Of a stretch of 64,000 nucleotides of DNA, positions 17,953 through 62,993 are shown piece by piece (positions within the stretch are counted from its first letter, which is position 1; every line of letters starts with the position of its first letter). Source of the stretch: a virus. The notes below the pieces were generated by a model. It had not been told where the DNA came from, searched no databases, and saw nothing but the letters and a program-made list of their open reading frames with translations. The translations under genes and the position numbers were made by a program. The DNA is taken from IMG/VR virus record IMGVR_UViG_3300042885_000725, positions 1 to 64,000 of that record; one strand, written 5' to 3'.

Positions 17953-17975
17953 TTTAAACTTAAAAAGTATAAATT

Positions 17976-25927: not shown

Positions 25928-25980
25928 TCTTAGCTATATAGTGCTCAAAAATTTTTAAGACTATTTAAATTTTTCAAGTT
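25923..25980 (+). terminator. Possible terminator after the portal gene
   Basis: AATAGTCTT (25923-25931, containing the stop) and AAGACTATT (25967-25975) form a nine-base stem with a 35-base loop, followed by TAAATTTTT. The large loop makes termination uncertain. Confidence 0.45.
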
Positions 25981-25987
25981 TATTTAT

Positions 25988-26003
25988 TATATTAAATTAT
26001 AAA
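25988..26003 (+). promoter_or_regulatory. TATATTAAATTATAA promoter-like element before head genes
   Basis: TTTATTATATTAAATTATAAACTAAAACCAACAAAATG combines the T-rich TATATTA element with the A-rich ACCAACAAAATG leader. The same downstream half recurs at 57052. It would boost scaffold and capsid transcription. Confidence 0.5.
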
Positions 26004-30926: not shown

Positions 30927-31457
30927 ATGGCAGCTAAAGTAAAAGTTACTGCAGGTGGTGAAAAACATGTAGTATATAAAAAGACTACAAAAAAAGGTGA
31001 GGGAAAGGTTGGTAATATAATGGTTAACCATCCTACTAAAGATAAAGGTCAGTGGGATACAATAGATCTTACTGCAAAAGGAAGAGCAAAAACAGTAGCT
31101 CAGGGTGTAGCAGCTACAAAGAAATGGCATAAAGATAATCCTGATTACAACTATCAGGGAAAAGGTTTATCTAAAATGAAAACTGGTGGGTCTACGGCAG
31201 CTTGGACTAGAAAAGAAGGTAAGAATCCTACGGGAGGATTAAATGCTAAAGGAGTTGCTTCCTACAGAAAAGAAAATCCAGGAAGTAAACTTAAAATGGC
31301 TGTGACTACTAAGCCATCAAAGCTTGATCCAGATAGTAAAGACGCTAAGAGAAGAAAAAGCTTTTGTGCTAGAATGTCAGGAGTTGATGGACCTATGAAA
31401 GATGAGAAGGGAAAACCTACTAGAAAGGCATTAGCTTTAAGAAAATGGAATTGTTAA
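30927..31457 (+). CDS. Basic phage protein with DUF6321-like C-terminus
   Basis: 176 residues. The C-terminal half (AWTRKEGKNPTGGLNAKGVA, SYRKENPGSKLKMAVTTKP, and the ending RRKSFCARMSGVDGP...ALRKWNC) corresponds to a family I remember as DUF6321, common in marine and T4-like phages. The N-terminal half is Lys/Gly-rich. Between them lies KMKTGGST, the first example of the K-M-x-x-G-G-S/T motif that recurs in the next genes. Function unknown, probably DNA-associated. Confidence 0.7.
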   Translation: MAAKVKVTAGGEKHVVYKKTTKKGEGKVGNIMVNHPTKDKGQWDTIDLTAKGRAKTVAQGVAATKKWHKDNPDYNYQGKGLSKMKTGGSTAAWTRKEGKNPTGGLNAKGVASYRKENPGSKLKMAVTTKPSKLDPDSKDAKRRKSFCARMSGVDGPMKDEKGKPTRKALALRKWNC

Positions 31458-53818: not shown

Positions 53819-56800
53819 TGTATAATAAGAAAGCTCTATCTAAAGCTACAGCTGAGTTGGACAAAGCTAAAGCTCCTAAGAAACCTAAAGATATAATCAC
53901 TGATCCAATGGGTCAGTGGAAATATCCTGGTTTACCTACTAGAATTCCTGGTAATGACATCACTATGCAAGGAGTAGGCTATCCTGTATTAGGTGTGGCT
54001 AATAATGGTCAGAGAAAGATAATGCTTCCGGGAGCAGACTACACTTTTCCTGGAGCAGAGTATGTAGATGAATATCCTCAAATGAGAAAAGGAGGAGAGA
54101 GAAAAAGAAGAAAGACTAAAAGCATATCTGGTACTAATAAGATCATGCAAAAAAATCCTTTGTTTAAAGATTATAAAAACAGAGTATATGATCCAAATGT
54201 AGATTACTTTCAAAAAGGTGGTGTAAAGGGTAACTGGAAAGTTAGAGAAGAACTTTATGATGGGGAAGATGAATACTTTAGAGCTAACCCACATGTAGGT
54301 GGTATGGCTGCTGAAGATGATACAGTTATTTTAAATCCTTATTCTAAATTATCTAAAGCTGAAAAAGATGCAATAATTAAAAATGAAAAAGCCAGGCTTA
54401 CTATGAGAAATGGTTACGCTAGACCAGATTTCAATTTAACAGAAGAACAAGCAAAAGCATTTGAAAATTATTCACCAGACTTACAAGATCAAAAAGAGAC
54501 TATTGTAGGAAGAATATTGTCAGGTGATCCTAGTCAAGGTAATGCTACTAAGCAACAAAGAGAATATGCTGAAGAACTACAAAGATTCATGGATATGCAT
54601 AAGGACACTGTATTAACAAATACATCAGGTCCAAGAAACTTTCAAGATGGTGGTCCACAAAATAATACTTCTGAAGAAAGATTTAAAAAAAGATTAATGA
54701 AAAGATATCCTGGCATGCAGGGTGTTTATGGAACTGACGGTGAAAATTTAAGTATTATCAAAGACCCAAACTATAAGGCTTCAGATCATGGTTTTGGAAA
54801 TATAGAATTTATGTTTCCTGGTCAAGATTCTGTAACTTATACTGATGATTATCAATATAAAAATCCTACACCAGATCAATATACTACTGTTTATAACCCT
54901 AAAGGTGCAAACAGAGGTGATGTATTTTTAGACATGATGCATGGAATGAGAGATGATGAAGAGTATCAAAAACTATTACAAAACTTTGGAGCTACTGTAA
55001 AAAAAGGAAGAGGACGAGATATGGATCATTGGTATAATGTAGAGGCTCAAGAAAATCCTAATTATGTAGAAGATGGTAGAGAAGTTTGGGATAACAATTA
55101 TATTGATGGTATTTTAAGAGCTGAGTTAGCTAATAAAACTATAGGAAGAAGAGTAAAAGGAAATGACTATAAGTTAGAAAGAAGAGGGTCTACAGATGAA
55201 ATAAAACAAGCTGCCAAAGACATAAAAAAATATCTAAAGACTCCACAAAAACCTAAACAATATGTAGGACCTGTTATTGAAAATAATGGTTTTATTACTC
55301 CTGAATATGAAGATGGTGGTTATATAGAAGCAGATCTTACAGATGATGAAATAGAAGAATACAGAAAAGGCGGTTACATAGTAGAAGACATATCTGTACC
55401 AGAACTTAATCAAGCTCAGAAAGGTGGGTCTAACACTACAGTTCACACTGATAAAAATGGTACTAAGACTACCAAGTATAGAGATTCTCATAATGTTGTT
55501 CATTATAAAGTTGAAACCAAAGATGGTAAAGTTTATAATAAACAAGACAAAAGTCTTTCAGTAGGACAAGCAGCAAATGATACAAGGACACCTACGGAAA
55601 GAGCAATTGAAATGCAGAATTTTTATAAAGCTCATCCTGGTTTACAACAAGATTATTTAAAACCTGGTACAGCTGCTTACATAGAAGCCCACGATGGACC
55701 AATGCAATCTGTAGATGACTTCTGGACATTACCTATAGGTATGACAAGTGCGGGAGTTAAAGGTACAGTTGGTTTAGCAAAAGGTTTAACTTCTCTTGGT
55801 CGTAATGCTCTTAAATCATCATTAGTTCAATCAGGTAAAGCTGGAACAAAAGCTTTACTTAATAAGTCTTTGGTTAAAAGTTTACCTGGTTCAAGTATTA
55901 ATAATCTAGTAGCTTCAGGATTTGCTGGTACTGCATTAACTGATATAGTAACTGGTAAAGTTGCGGAACCTTGGAAAAAAGCTAATAAGTCTGGTAAAGG
56001 TTCTGACTATGCGGATGCTGTTGCTGAAAATATGTTTACAGCTTTAGATGCTTATCCTTTATATAATGCAGCAGGTAAAGGTCTTAAACAATTAGGTAAA
56101 TATGCTAAAACTTTACCAGGGAAACTAAGTAAAACAAAAGCAAATTCAATACCAAAAAGAGCAACTAGTATAGGTTTAGATACGTACTCAGGAGATAGTT
56201 TTACACCAATACGTATTGGAGGTAAAAAATATAAACATGCTGGTCAAGAATGGTATAATGTTGATCCAGGAGATTATCCAGGAATGACTTGGGAAGAAAC
56301 ACAAAAACAAGGTTTACAAGATGCTGGTGAAAGTTTAAATTATTTGTTTAAAAAGAATCCTAATTATAGTAAAGAAATATTTGATAATGTAGGTGACTTT
56401 GATTATAAACAGTTTTCTGAAGGAGATGAAGCCTTGAAAAAATTAAAGTCTGCTATTACTTCAGAACCAATTATAGGTAAAGCTGATGTTTACAGTAATA
56501 CTGAACTACAGAAAAAAATTCAAAACTATAAAAACTGGAGAAATGAAATAGATGAAATATATAAAGAATATAAAAAACTTGATCCTTCAGGTAATTCAAG
56601 TAATAGTGATTTACGTAATTTACATCCTCATTTGAAAAAAAGATGGGATGCTTTAAAAAATATTGATAAATCAATAACAGATAAGTTTATTACTAAAGAG
56701 CAAGAGAAACTTATACGTGAAAATTATCCTGAACTTATATCTACATTAGATACAAGAAATGATTTAAGTAGACATTCTCTTAAAATATTAGGAGAAGATA

Positions 56801-57018
56801 AGTTAAAAAAACCAATGCCACAAGAAGCAATTGATATTTTAAAATCACTGAATTTATACAAAAAACCTAATAAGAATTTGCTTAGGTTTGAACCAGGTAA
56901 AATGAATAAATTAGGAGGATTGGTTAAAGCTCAAAAAGGCGGTATAGTTTTAAAACTTACTTCTAAAGAAATTCAAGATTATATTAAACAAGGTTATATA
57001 GTTGAGGATGTTGAGTAA
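53818..57018 (+). CDS. Giant GG-motif protein A
   Basis: 1066 residues. The N-terminal 60-90 region has VGYPVLGVANNGQRKIMLPG, then ADYTFPGAEYVDEYP-x-M-R-K-G-G. I recall this M-x-P-G-x-[DN]-Y-x-F-P-G motif from proteins of large Bacteroidota phages. Short GG motifs (MRKGGE, FQKGGV, FQDGGP, YEDGGY, AQKGGS, AQKGGI) are scattered through it. A mini-domain DLTDDEIEEYRKGGYIVEDI (about 506-525) recurs at the C-terminus as KLTSKEIQDYIKQGYIVEDV. The region about 640-720 has Gly/Ala-rich helices that may insert into a membrane. Possibly an ejected virion protein. Confidence 0.65.
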   Translation: MYNKKALSKATAELDKAKAPKKPKDIITDPMGQWKYPGLPTRIPGNDITMQGVGYPVLGVANNGQRKIMLPGADYTFPGAEYVDEYPQMRKGGERKRRKTKSISGTNKIMQKNPLFKDYKNRVYDPNVDYFQKGGVKGNWKVREELYDGEDEYFRANPHVGGMAAEDDTVILNPYSKLSKAEKDAIIKNEKARLTMRNGYARPDFNLTEEQAKAFENYSPDLQDQKETIVGRILSGDPSQGNATKQQREYAEELQRFMDMHKDTVLTNTSGPRNFQDGGPQNNTSEERFKKRLMKRYPGMQGVYGTDGENLSIIKDPNYKASDHGFGNIEFMFPGQDSVTYTDDYQYKNPTPDQYTTVYNPKGANRGDVFLDMMHGMRDDEEYQKLLQNFGATVKKGRGRDMDHWYNVEAQENPNYVEDGREVWDNNYIDGILRAELANKTIGRRVKGNDYKLERRGSTDEIKQAAKDIKKYLKTPQKPKQYVGPVIENNGFITPEYEDGGYIEADLTDDEIEEYRKGGYIVEDISVPELNQAQKGGSNTTVHTDKNGTKTTKYRDSHNVVHYKVETKDGKVYNKQDKSLSVGQAANDTRTPTERAIEMQNFYKAHPGLQQDYLKPGTAAYIEAHDGPMQSVDDFWTLPIGMTSAGVKGTVGLAKGLTSLGRNALKSSLVQSGKAGTKALLNKSLVKSLPGSSINNLVASGFAGTALTDIVTGKVAEPWKKANKSGKGSDYADAVAENMFTALDAYPLYNAAGKGLKQLGKYAKTLPGKLSKTKANSIPKRATSIGLDTYSGDSFTPIRIGGKKYKHAGQEWYNVDPGDYPGMTWEETQKQGLQDAGESLNYLFKKNPNYSKEIFDNVGDFDYKQFSEGDEALKKLKSAITSEPIIGKADVYSNTELQKKIQNYKNWRNEIDEIYKEYKKLDPSGNSSNSDLRNLHPHLKKRWDALKNIDKSITDKFITKEQEKLIRENYPELISTLDTRNDLSRHSLKILGEDKLKKPMPQEAIDILKSLNLYKKPNKNLLRFEPGKMNKLGGLVKAQKGGIVLKLTSKEIQDYIKQGYIVEDVE

Positions 57019-57051
57019 ATTTTTAAAGTTTAAACAATAAATTTATTTTTA

Positions 57052-57069
57052 GTATATTAAATTATAATC
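57052..57069 (+). promoter_or_regulatory. GTATATTAAATTATAA promoter-like element
   Basis: TTTATTTTTAGTATATTAAATTATAATCTTTACAAATGG, eight bases before the start at 57077. The core TATATTAAATTATAA equals that before 26018. Confidence 0.5.
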
Positions 57070-57076
57070 TTTACAA

Positions 57077-59665
57077 ATGGAAAGAAGAACAGTTAGAATT
57101 TACAAAGCTCCAAACGGACAAGGTGAATATATAAATAAGACAGGTCAATTTTTGAAGAAAGCACAAATGGGTGCTGAAACAAGAAGTGATGAAGTCATGC
57201 AGCAAAAACAATTAGAACCTATAATGCAGTTTGTAGCGGGAGCATTGGATAATGACATGGAGCCTGAAGAAATCATGAAGATATTGGTATCTAAAGGTCT
57301 TCCTAAAGAACTAGTATATTCAGTTATATCAAATGTAATGCAAGAGCGTGAGGCTCCAGTAGAAGAGGAAGAAGAAAGTAAGAAAGAACAACCTGCTGAA
57401 GAATCTAAAATTGGACAATCAGAGTTTCAACCTATTGGTGAAGAAGAAGCTCCTGTAGAAGAAGATCAGGGAATGGATTATTATAATTCATATGCTGATG
57501 AACCAGAACCAACAATTGAAGAAGAGTATCAAGATGGTGGACCAATTCTTTCTTATGGTGATTTAGAAAATAACCAAGAAGAAGAATCTATTGATATGTC
57601 TCCGGAGTTAGTTCAGAAATTAACTTCACTTAAAGATTTTATAGACAAAGCTCCTTCAAATGATTTTGAAGGTTTTGATAAAGATATTAGTGAATATGAA
57701 GGTAATTATACACCGGTTGAATGGGATGTATTAGGAGATGGTTATGGTTACTATAAAAAAGGAGGTTCTAAAAAGAACTTTACAAAGAATGTACTAGCTC
57801 TTATTAAAAAACAAGAAGGTGGTGATAACCAAGACATTGCTCAAGGTAATAAAAAAGATACTTTAACAAATGAAGTTTCTAAAATTAAATCTTCATTCAC
57901 TGACAAATTAAAAGAAGTATCAAATAAAGCTGCTATAGATTCTATCTATGAAAAGATGATGAAGTCTAATGATCCTGAGTTAATGCAATCTGCACAAGAA
58001 CTTGCTCAAAACAGACAGAAGTCAAGTCAAATGGGAAGCTTTGAACCTGTAGCACAACAAGGTGGTTATGTAGGAGAAGAGCAACCTGACATGTTTAGTC
58101 AAGGTGGTTTTGATATGCCTGAAGCACAAAAAGGAGGAATGCAAAAACTTGGTGACTTCTTATTAGGAGAAAAATATACTACAGCTAATAATCCATATAC
58201 TGTTAAGACTGGTGCTTTGTATAAAGATCCTTTGACAGGTTTAACTCCTGTAGCAAGAACTGTACATAAGAGAGGTATATTAGGAAGACCTAAAAAATAT
58301 ACTGATTATTATACTAAATCAAGTAAAGTTGATCAAGACTTTATAAATAATTTTTCTGAAGGTAAACCTAAAGCAAATACTAAAAAGTCTGAAGATATAA
58401 AAGTTGATTCAAAAAAACGTGAGTATAATATACCTGATGAGCAATATGAAAAATTGTCTAGAAGAGATAAAAGACAAGAAAGAAAGTGGGCTAAGTTAGA
58501 AAATGAAACAAAAGAATTTAACAAAGGTGTTAATTTTGTTAATGTTGATGAGGAAGAGAGAAAGCAAAAAGAAAAAGAACTTAAAGCAGCAATGAAAGAT
58601 GCTGCCGCATGGTCTACTAAAATTGGTATGGATACTCCAGAATGGTGGGATAATGGAACTACTGAAGCTGCATTACCAGAAGGACTTTCTCCAGAAGATA
58701 TTGAATACCTTGATGCTCAAGATATTGAACTTGAAAAAGCTAATATGATTCCTATTATGGAAAGGCAAAAAGCAGCTAAAAATAGATTGAAATTATACAA
58801 TCAAGATAAATCAGATGAAATCTATGCTGCTAAAATTAGAGATAATGCATATAAGCAATTTAGTAATGCAGGAGATTTTAGACCTGATCTTTCTAAATTT
58901 ATACAAAACCCTGAAGATATTAAAAGACAAAAAGAAGAAGAGGAAGCAAGAAAACAAATGCAAGAAGAAGGTAGAGAAGCTGAGTATGAAAAAAGATACG
59001 GTGGTTTACCAAAAGCTCAAACTGGTCCAACAGTTAAGTCTGGAACAAGTGCTTTAAATCCCGCATCTGATCCTACTGCTAATTCAGGTAATTTAGCTGG
59101 TATGTTAAAACCACAAAATAATCCTAATTCATTTATGGGTGCGTCTGCTCCATTTATGAATCAAAATGCACCTGTTAATAAAGATGCTAAAGTTGATGCA
59201 ATTCAAATGGATCCTAATCAAACTAAAGATCAAAAAATTACTTCTTTAGATTTTGGTAATCCTGATGAAGATAACTTAGTTGCTCAAGATGTAGAAACAA
59301 AAAGAAACTTTGATGGTACTAACTTTAATAATAAATTTAATGCTGCTGCTGATATGTTTACAGGCTTTATGGGTAGACTAGATTCTGCTAAGAAAGAAAA
59401 AGAAATGTATCAAAATAACTTTAATGCTGATAGTCTTTATGGTGTATCTACTAATAAAGACAAAGGAGATTATGTAGCTTATGGTCAACAAACAGGAATG
59501 TTTAGACCTAATGAAACAGGTCAAGAAACTATGGGTAGATTTGCATATGGTCAATACGGTGGTTACATGCAAGAGGGAGGATATACTGAGGGAGATGAAG
59601 TTGATATGACTGAAGAAGAACTAGCAGAATTTATTGCTAACGGAGGTGAAGTAGAATATTTATAA
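57077..59665 (+). CDS. Giant GG-motif protein B
   Basis: 862 residues, acidic, mostly coiled or disordered. The start is MERRTVRIYKAPNGQGEYIN, with a helical domain near residue 40-95 (LEPIMQFVAGALDNDMEPEE). GG motifs: YQDGGP, YKKGGS, KQEGGD, AQQGGY, FSQGGF, AQKGGM, RYGGLPKAQTG, QYGGYMQEGGY. The C-terminus DMTEEELAEFIANGGEVEYL is a third version of the mini-domain in protein A. Long Glu/Lys/Gln stretches (about 480-660) suggest an extended, filamentous or cargo-like protein. Role unknown; virion protein by context. Confidence 0.65.
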   Translation: MERRTVRIYKAPNGQGEYINKTGQFLKKAQMGAETRSDEVMQQKQLEPIMQFVAGALDNDMEPEEIMKILVSKGLPKELVYSVISNVMQEREAPVEEEEESKKEQPAEESKIGQSEFQPIGEEEAPVEEDQGMDYYNSYADEPEPTIEEEYQDGGPILSYGDLENNQEEESIDMSPELVQKLTSLKDFIDKAPSNDFEGFDKDISEYEGNYTPVEWDVLGDGYGYYKKGGSKKNFTKNVLALIKKQEGGDNQDIAQGNKKDTLTNEVSKIKSSFTDKLKEVSNKAAIDSIYEKMMKSNDPELMQSAQELAQNRQKSSQMGSFEPVAQQGGYVGEEQPDMFSQGGFDMPEAQKGGMQKLGDFLLGEKYTTANNPYTVKTGALYKDPLTGLTPVARTVHKRGILGRPKKYTDYYTKSSKVDQDFINNFSEGKPKANTKKSEDIKVDSKKREYNIPDEQYEKLSRRDKRQERKWAKLENETKEFNKGVNFVNVDEEERKQKEKELKAAMKDAAAWSTKIGMDTPEWWDNGTTEAALPEGLSPEDIEYLDAQDIELEKANMIPIMERQKAAKNRLKLYNQDKSDEIYAAKIRDNAYKQFSNAGDFRPDLSKFIQNPEDIKRQKEEEEARKQMQEEGREAEYEKRYGGLPKAQTGPTVKSGTSALNPASDPTANSGNLAGMLKPQNNPNSFMGASAPFMNQNAPVNKDAKVDAIQMDPNQTKDQKITSLDFGNPDEDNLVAQDVETKRNFDGTNFNNKFNAAADMFTGFMGRLDSAKKEKEMYQNNFNADSLYGVSTNKDKGDYVAYGQQTGMFRPNETGQETMGRFAYGQYGGYMQEGGYTEGDEVDMTEEELAEFIANGGEVEYL

Positions 59666-62600: not shown

Positions 62601-62933
62601 ACATCAGGTATAACAAACAAGATGAAAACAGATGCCTTAAATCAATTGTATCCACAATATCAAGTACATCCTGAAACAGGTGGGGGAGTTGATTATGATC
62701 CAACTAAAGCTAAACAAATTAAACATGAAATGTCTGGGGATAATGAGCAAGCATATTATGAAGAATGTTCTAAGCGTTATAAAGATGAAGCAACAATTCA
62801 AAAATGTGTGGATTCTAAAATGAAAAATGCTCCTTCAGGTGGAGGTAACTCTGGTAGAAATGCTTTTGATGCACATAATGCTAAAGAAGGAGGGTTTGTT
62901 TATGGTGATGTAACTTATCCATTTATACTATAA
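59676..62933 (+). CDS. Giant GG-motif protein C with PREEANLEAE domain
   Basis: 1085 residues. The N-terminal 190 residues include VPREEANLEAEGGETVYGDI, the segment RHSGGGVPLNLPDDTFIYSD, EFLQMFGKGGKGNKSYTPAA and LAKQYDIEKYRKILQDPDSD. I remember this combination as a conserved unknown domain in large marine and gut Bacteroidota phages. Repeats AQYGM-[AS]-MGGYDLP (about 266-280 and 410-424) and EAEYGMSMG follow. Two CPC-type Cys pairs (DCPCMKKV...CVPCEQL, PCPCTRAD...CPPCE) resemble small zinc knuckles. The C-terminal third has long coiled coils (about 870-970). Confidence 0.65.
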   Translation: MKVRIKKVPQARTGYQVQGSLANDVPAMGGADYNTYIGKPSLKASKYMTAVPREEANLEAEGGETVYGDINGDGMPEHKTIKGPRHSGGGVPLNLPDDTFIYSDFRGMNIKEPEFLQMFGKGGKGNKSYTPAALAKQYDIEKYRKILQDPDSDKIDRKTAELMIKNYQNKLAALALVQEGKKGFPQGMPAVAKPMTAENQYTEDTFVDPSVKQFASQIDGKLKEAEQNENTAEQDPDFAQQAQQAQEMNEGQPVAQPGEMEQPMAQYGMAMGGYDLPFAQSGIELGPIYTPKSDDYNYDRNQPGMQEYLKTIQRYNELRGKPEFVPVGEGPLDKNQTREYRNLIYDINEHYGHGTAYDPETGEPIPHKKLTPEEQLKMYKQNVEDCPCMKKVIVQGKSQNKCVPCEQLEMAQYGMSMGGYDLPYGDDMPEAEYGMSMGITSKNYMGRPKSAMYARGGALRTYQGAEGASSTGAAGGAPAATTDDGTLDVTGLDPDASNKKYQIWMKHNPGKEPKIMLNGKPAKYVPPTKPTGDLPLSDLKAINEIGYKMLEKEITNPNSKVRATLIEEAQAAYKDPKTGGKIGISKYRKNRAVPTGDEIINGILTGKKRNDAIKESGMDMRYLNNGATAFDTYDELKKRGIVTSQDEYDKKKKEYESKGWDNKDKIAKTLKITLPTPDQTLIEQTGAHGIARMQNNKVKGAYNKWGDDDAYQLETLFGRGDHDIQTNTGGNDETEMAALYGDNYNTLSPIEGFAGQSTLAHGANPNTAQGKFEAVPEEKKEQVNAEPCPCTRADGSTYELPRNADGTCPPCETEGEATTPQKTEPKMWLQDKIKTAGAFGDLMSAKKYTPWAAKYDLRTPKPTFMDPTRELAANAEQANIQTQALGQFAGPQALSARSSGVMGAASKNAADVLAKYNNANVNIANQFESNIANIENQEQQLNTASQQKLYDQNTISNQQYDNTKRALRNNLMNQTTSGITNKMKTDALNQLYPQYQVHPETGGGVDYDPTKAKQIKHEMSGDNEQAYYEECSKRYKDEATIQKCVDSKMKNAPSGGGNSGRNAFDAHNAKEGGFVYGDVTYPFIL

Positions 62934-62993
62934 ACTTATGACGTTTACAGAGAAATTAAAAATTTTATAGATTTACAATAGAAAAAATTAGCT

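Follow-up and report, generated by a model that had tools for sequence, protein, structure and literature searches.

Introduction

Crassvirus particles hold megadaltons of cargo, in the capsid as well as in the tail, and we know of no account of how this cargo is selected and held. Encapsulin cargo-loading peptides, which are short and C-terminal, load diverse enzymes into an HK97-fold shell. In phages, the capsid targeting sequence of T4 (IPI-III, Alt) and the packaging signal of P1 DarB are short and sufficient to load heterologous proteins (PMC9024508, PMC7411985). These signals are N-terminal and 10 to 30 amino acids long; the T4 signal is removed by gp21, and the P1 Dar proteins have no consensus among them. 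The N4 virion RNA polymerase, a giant injected protein, requires a C-terminal region of about 1,400 amino acids for its encapsidation, as reported in PMC5512222. Polyvalent proteins (Iyer et al. 2017) are giant and multidomain, with ART-PolyVal, metallopeptidase, lysozyme and other effectors whose delivery with the DNA has been inferred; that work does not mention SET domains, and we know of no tag at module joints described in it. In the crassvirus crAss001, genes positioned behind the muzzle gene encode proteins that mass spectrometry detected in virions, and two virion-bound segments of cargo protein C1 (gp45) have been resolved, residues 214 to 245 in the tail barrel and 425 to 552 at the portal (PMC10172136).

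Here we describe a sequence unit, present three times in two giant proteins (A and B) encoded behind the muzzle gene of a crassvirus-like phage, that may act as a docking or loading tag for virion cargo. It would work much as the T4 and P1 signals do, as a short tag on injected proteins, but it differs from them in being C-terminal and internal, in having a strong consensus and in falling into two or more subtypes. None of 98 copies lies within the first 60 residues of its protein; by position, the tag is not a member of the T4/P1 class. With the N4 polymerase it shares a location toward the C-terminus of a giant protein, whereas the N4 region is far longer than the 26 to 29 amino acids of the tag and no sequence relation between the two is known. 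Encapsulin peptides are similar in description (short, C-terminal). The unit would represent a family of tags that is new, with a type of function already known from other systems.

Results

A crassvirus-type gene block

The window, by which we mean the whole 64,000-nucleotide stretch analyzed, is part of a 69,590-base virus record (IMGVR_UViG_3300042885_000725, positions 1 to 64,000). By its gene content it is a crassvirus-like phage fragment: the muzzle protein (Table 1) is accompanied by matches to CrAss_Ring_2 (E 1e-21) and CrAss_Ring_1 (E 2e-6), the combination of muzzle and ring tail proteins that characterizes a Crassvirales-type virion. Upstream of the muzzle gene we recognize both ring proteins (1 and 2), the portal, the terminase and the major head protein, the portal and major head protein as PHROG matches. 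The structural gene region also holds an ORF with a DUF6321 domain (30927-31454, E 5e-25).

Behind the muzzle gene, the order is A, B, C, D. Proteins A, B and C of the window match no Pfam or PHROG family; NCBIfam gave no match for A and C and a sub-cutoff match for B, and tblastn against 50,697 phage records found no relatives of the three. A shared property is their richness in glycine pairs: xGG occurs at 6.4 per 1,000 residues in the B family versus 0.84 in the muzzle, and in A, B and C the density of [QKED]xGG is 4 to 8 times that in the muzzle or D.

Table 1. Positions of the muzzle gene, the genes behind it and the features within them.
Feature	Position	Strand	Details
Muzzle protein, 1818 aa	48362..53818	+	Anchor of the conserved gene block; Pfam PF25731 crAss_MUZ, E 4e-23
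Protein A, 1066 aa	53818..57018	+	From N- to C-terminus: conserved beta domain, variable region, tag copy 1, variable module, tag copy 2
All-beta N-terminal domain of A	53890..54087	+	Residues ~25-90; AF2 pLDDT 91-95 over ~31-80
Module of A absent from close relative L087	54226..55308	+	Residues ~137-497; junctions YFQKGG and EYEDGG
Tag copy 1, inside A	55309..55395	+	EDGGYIEADLTDDEIEEYRKGGYIVEDIS, then VPELNQAQKGG; residues 498-526, core nt 55336; 51.9 bits
Variable module between the tag copies of A	55438..56925	+	Residues ~541-1036; no Pfam, PHROG, NCBIfam or PDB sequence match
Tag copy 2, C-terminus of A	56929..57015	+	AQKGGIVLKLTSKEIQDYIKQGYIVEDVE-stop; residues 1038-1066, core nt 56956, ends VEDVE-stop
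AT-rich palindrome and promoter-like element between A and B	57016..57066	+	TAAACTTnnnAAGTTTA; overlaps A stop codon
Protein B, 862 aa	57077..59665	+	xQxG(G) motifs abundant; homologues in most relatives
Tag copy 3, C-terminus of B	59579..59662	+	GYTEGDEVDMTEEELAEFIANGGEVEYL-stop; core nt 59606, ends VEYL-stop
Protein C, 1085 aa	59676..62933	+	Next gene of block, without tag

Three copies of a predicted hairpin-helix unit

The first-pass annotation had pointed to three similar copies in the two proteins, two of them at the extreme C-termini. We searched the six-frame ORFs of the window with profiles from which the window and its four closest relatives (L087, L109, L120 and L098) had been excluded. 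All three copies were recovered where they had been placed: the internal copy of A at 52.7 bits (E 1.7e-15), the C-terminal copy of A at 50.4 bits (E 7.5e-15) and that of B at 58.5 bits (E 2.8e-17), the latter two running up to the stop codons. These scores rule out chance resemblance of the three. No further tag-like site in the window passed E 0.1, the best non-tag matches being at E ~1 or worse.

A simple profile of either A type, internal or C-terminal, detects the other (E 1e-9 to 5e-11; hhalign 99%), and the two are clearly one family by sequence. The B type lies farther off: the B copy is reached, at the correct position, by a single A C-terminal profile at E 0.3 only. In profile-profile comparison the B type matches the A type at 94%, and the B type together with the ends of split A proteins joins the family at 93 to 96%. 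Membership of the B type, which is argued for by this comparison and by the intermediates, is therefore the weakest link in the family.

The consensus unit reads GG-x(2-8)-strand-[LM][TS]xxE[IL]xx[YFL]xxxG[YG]xVE. Since the preceding xGG and the first strand belong to it, its length is nearer 26 to 29 residues than the 20 first proposed. AF2 models the isolated tag as a helix (the TDDEIEEYRK region, pLDDT ~90) with unpaired flanks. In the model of whole A, which is poor overall (mean pLDDT 51.5, pTM 0.32), the C-terminal tag forms a block of pLDDT 74 to 81, with a hairpin (1037-1039/1042-1044) at the glycine pair followed by a helix (1049-1057). Such a hairpin-helix element would need a partner for stability, which fits docking. 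Neither the model of the tag alone nor that of whole A yielded a fold match for the tag, the Foldseek matches concerning the N-terminal domain of A.

The tag has no sequence match in Pfam, PHROG, NCBIfam, PADLOC or the PDB; the best PDB match, enterocin K1 (E 0.08), was taken as chance. We also considered a double-glycine (C39) leader peptide and rejected it: the tag is C-terminal or internal and its helix-to-GG spacing is off by one, and in terminal copies the GG at the C39-leader place is not conserved, whereas xG[YG] is.

Glycine pairs stand before nearly every tag copy and also at module joints, as might be expected if a phage protease cut there to release the effector modules and to detach the tag, which would then be a C-terminal propeptide in the manner of T4. 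Precedents exist in the propeptides of T4 and SPN3US, which are cut in head maturation (PMC7411985), and in polyvalent proteins, which are thought to be separated by proteolysis (PMC5512222). We nevertheless regard such a processing signal as decidedly improbable, as the residue context of the GG is loose, no prohead protease was recognized among the ten structural-region ORFs scanned, and the GG forms the hairpin turn in the AF2 model, which would also account for its conservation. Cleavage of the T4 gp21 type ([LI]xE) at GYIVE was rejected, residue -3 not being conserved (I, V, E, T, K, L).

Recurrence at the C-termini of proteins behind the muzzle

A DNA pattern for TxxEIxxYxxxGYxVE, containing neither a stop codon nor a leucine, retrieved 85 stretches from IMG/VR. 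The 95 in-frame matches lie nearly all inside large ORFs. A Leu precedes the Thr in 70 of 71 distinct copies, although the pattern holds none. The 49 records searched whole each carry one to four copies, clustered at one place. For comparison of the gene block we used 41 records besides the window (40 fetched regions and L087); every one that extends far enough has the order muzzle-A-(A2)-B-C-D. As the records were found through the motif itself, the tag frequencies given here refer to motif-bearing records and not to crassviruses at large.

The first-pass annotation had staked its reading on recurrence at C-termini in related phages, and such recurrence is what we found. In the 41 records, the C-terminal profile detects the tag at the C-terminus of 75 of the 93 complete proteins between muzzle and C, almost always 0 to 3 residues from the stop codon, versus none of 87 neighboring proteins (0/41 muzzle, 0/30 C and 0/16 D). 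Scores are bimodal, with 189 C-terminal matches of at least 15 bits versus 9 at 5 to 15 bits, and every strong C-terminal match examined was an ORF of the A, A2 or B type or a fragment thereof. Several of the 18 proteins in this slot without a detectable tag end in a recognizable shorter form, for example GDEVDEATMKELKKLGFTFEKI. In split versions of A, made up of two ORFs, the second one retains the tag and the first ends in a tag or a shorter variant. Overall, half of the copies (49/98) end at most 5 residues from the C-terminus.

Per genome, the A unit typically contains two copies and B a single one, and distinct A and B subtypes are kept side by side. These features are consistent with an assembly staple, in which A and B copies (or internal and terminal ones) would pair and keep the ejection complex assembled with no further receptor in the virion, the two subtypes being the halves of an interface. 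Record L112, however, retains only one copy in A, and L126 has copies in A but none at the C-terminus of A or B; nor does the whole-A model, with its low pTM, give any useful sign of pairing. We consider such a staple unlikely.

Tag copies at the joints of exchangeable modules

Protein A ranges from 363 to 2,507 residues in the relatives, with the first ~90 residues conserved and a mosaic beyond. In Leptolyngbya phage Lbo-JY46 and Cellulophaga phage phi17:2, a homologue of the N-terminal domain is encoded by the first or second gene behind the muzzle. Foldseek matched this domain to uncultured phage proteins and, more weakly, to a phi4:1 structural protein; no PDB match fell below E 0.1.

Beyond this domain, whole segments come and go. 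In L087, residue ~131 is joined straight to tag copy 1, and A of the window is 366 residues longer between ~131 and 497. L124 and L127 share 89% identity as far as DISVPSLTR..GG, after which L124 alone has a module of ~615 residues; in L127 the slot is empty, the joint running directly into the terminal copy so that two copies stand 6 residues apart. Of the internal copies, 35/49 precede [AYF][QKE]xG within 22 residues, and most others precede another xGG. Homology breakpoints between A proteins fall at a tag or xGG in 43 of 60 cases (collapsed), versus 9.7 expected and a maximum of 20 in 1,000 random placements, a comparison that gives no exact probability because the breakpoints share ancestry.

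The window's own A holds no recognized domain. Among the 52 A and A2 proteins scanned, we found SET (6), ART-PolyVal (3), DUF6782 metallopeptidase (3) and lysozyme (2) domains as well as GNAT and YkuD. Different A proteins hold them in different inter-tag intervals: SET at 478-556 of L092, between tag copies at 412 and 696; GNAT at 885-950 of L103, between copies at 582 and 997; and ART at 1225-1375 of L107, between copies at 482 and 1419. Several effector domains in one polypeptide, as in polyvalent proteins, occur in some A proteins only (SET and ART-PolyVal in L107, SET and GNAT in L103); in their giant, multidomain form and effector repertoire such A proteins resemble that class. SET domains occur in the putatively injected A proteins of L092, L103, L107 and L114, three of them with NHSxxPN, and the SET module of L103 has KKGG on both flanks. 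Collectively, these alignments indicate that exchangeable effector modules meet at internal tag copies and xGG motifs.

An N-terminal motif, M.(V/Y)(R/K)I..(L/I/V)P.A(Q/R).G, is present by pattern in 32 of 40 C proteins, in some A2 proteins and in a protein of Lbo-JY46 (L130:24101-25555). Internal tag copies often continue into LPxAQxG, which is similar to it, and the motif may possibly be an N-terminal counterpart of the tag.

That breakpoints fall at tags would also be seen if similar DNA at module ends promoted cassette exchange and the peptide itself had little function. This recombination seam gains some weight from tag codons that are somewhat more alike than usage predicts (0.67 versus 0.57), with Leu encoded as CTT in 38 of 47 copies against a background of 22%. 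Invariant residues nonetheless use several synonymous codons, and even very divergent sequences retain the terminal position, as does B, where there is little cassette exchange; we regard a seam of this kind as highly improbable.

We asked whether the palindromic element at the A stop codon might be a cassette boundary site and rejected this, as a similar element lies elsewhere in the genome, at 25966-26001 (possibly also at 62931-62947 and 17955-17971). Its palindrome is followed by AAATTTAGTATATTTAATATATA, ~10 bases before the B start, and the element is kept in nearly all relatives. Given its recurrence within the genome, it is probably a phage promoter or terminator, a promoter with a hairpin by its look.

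The tag beyond the immediate relatives

The exact DNA pattern, a stricter form, had no match in 85,000 bacterial and archaeal species genomes, and origin as a host domain was rejected on this basis, with the qualification that degenerate copies would escape such a search. By muzzle, the nearest isolates are Lbo-JY46 and Cellulophaga phages. Lbo-JY46 (L130, PP438436), which infects the laboratory cyanobacterium L. boryana and is the sole cultured tag-bearing phage found, encodes a homologue of the A N-terminal domain directly behind its muzzle homologue (E 3e-16), and the next protein ends in QQGGYNLGEEIDLSPEEVAKLIELGYDFEVV, a weak tag copy (21 bits). Its A-like and B-like proteins are XAI97386 and XAI97385 (C-terminal peptide ...GEEIDLSPEEVAKLIELGYDFEVV), and the gene before its muzzle homologue encodes CrAss_Ring_1 (E 2e-21). 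This cultured cyanobacterium phage has, then, a crassvirus-like tail, with muzzle homologue, ring 1, A N-terminal domain and a tagged B-like protein; in the deposit its proteins are named hypothetical and its taxonomy ends at Caudoviricetes. In phi17:2, gp041 has the A N-terminal domain (E 6e-10), is annotated as a virion structural protein and lacks the tag.

The attachment of the tag to enzymatic domains typical of early-acting injected proteins raises the possibility that it binds after ejection, localizing effectors through a host component such as the envelope, ribosome or RNA polymerase. Against this, the tag also ends B, which has no recognized enzymatic domain, and a related copy occurs in the phage of a cyanobacterium, a very different host; we think a role of this type very unlikely.

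In crAss001, including gp45 to gp50, we found no tag copy, from which it follows that other crassviruses load cargo without it. As C, D and the window's other virion-type genes also lack it, the tag would serve at best a subset of cargo. We suspected by eye that protein C was a gp45 homologue; hhalign was negative, and HMMs of the A N-terminus, B, C and D gave no significant match to gp45. Although homology to A, B, C or D was not found, gp45 is the best structural parallel: like A it is encoded behind the muzzle, and both of its resolved segments start at or shortly after a GG (209, 427).

Discussion

We propose that the ~26- to 29-residue unit serves to dock or load plug-in virion cargo, a reading to which we assign a probability of about one half. 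The unit would consist of a glycine-pair turn, a short strand, a helix and a second short strand. Proteins A, A2 and B would be packed in the virion as crAss001 cargo gp45 to gp50 is, and during assembly the tag would fasten every such polypeptide, along with the individual modules of A, to one shared receptor in the particle; the portal, the tail-barrel rings or another cargo protein are candidates. Since module ends bring the tag with them, an incoming enzyme domain might become cargo by landing in the slot between two copies.

Docking is supported by the restriction of the tag to genes behind the muzzle, by its terminal and joint positions and by the exchange of modules around it. That A is cargo is suggested by the effector-like domains in its variable regions, by a gene position that in crAss001 encodes virion proteins and by the structural annotation of its N-terminal homologue in phi17:2. 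Unpaired strands in the isolated-tag model, the poor whole-A model and the slot proteins without a detectable tag count against docking. The first-pass annotation had suggested a tag for capsid or tail targeting or for a common partner; that suggestion is partly supported, as the restriction to the cargo slot fits it, and it missed the marking of joints by internal copies and xGG.

In its broader form, which we advance tentatively as somewhat short of an even bet, the proposal is of a sequence-defined cargo code, in which a terminal and inter-module hairpin-helix-strand tag would recruit interchangeable effector enzymes into crassvirus-type particles, with the repertoire readable from genomes. 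A short conserved tag confined to the cargo slot makes the question of cargo selection testable with a single fusion. If the proposal is true, injected effectors of uncultured phages could be found by sequence alone, and the tag could serve for programmable delivery. If it does mark cargo, the tag would offer a handle on how the abundant crAss-like viruses choose what they deliver.
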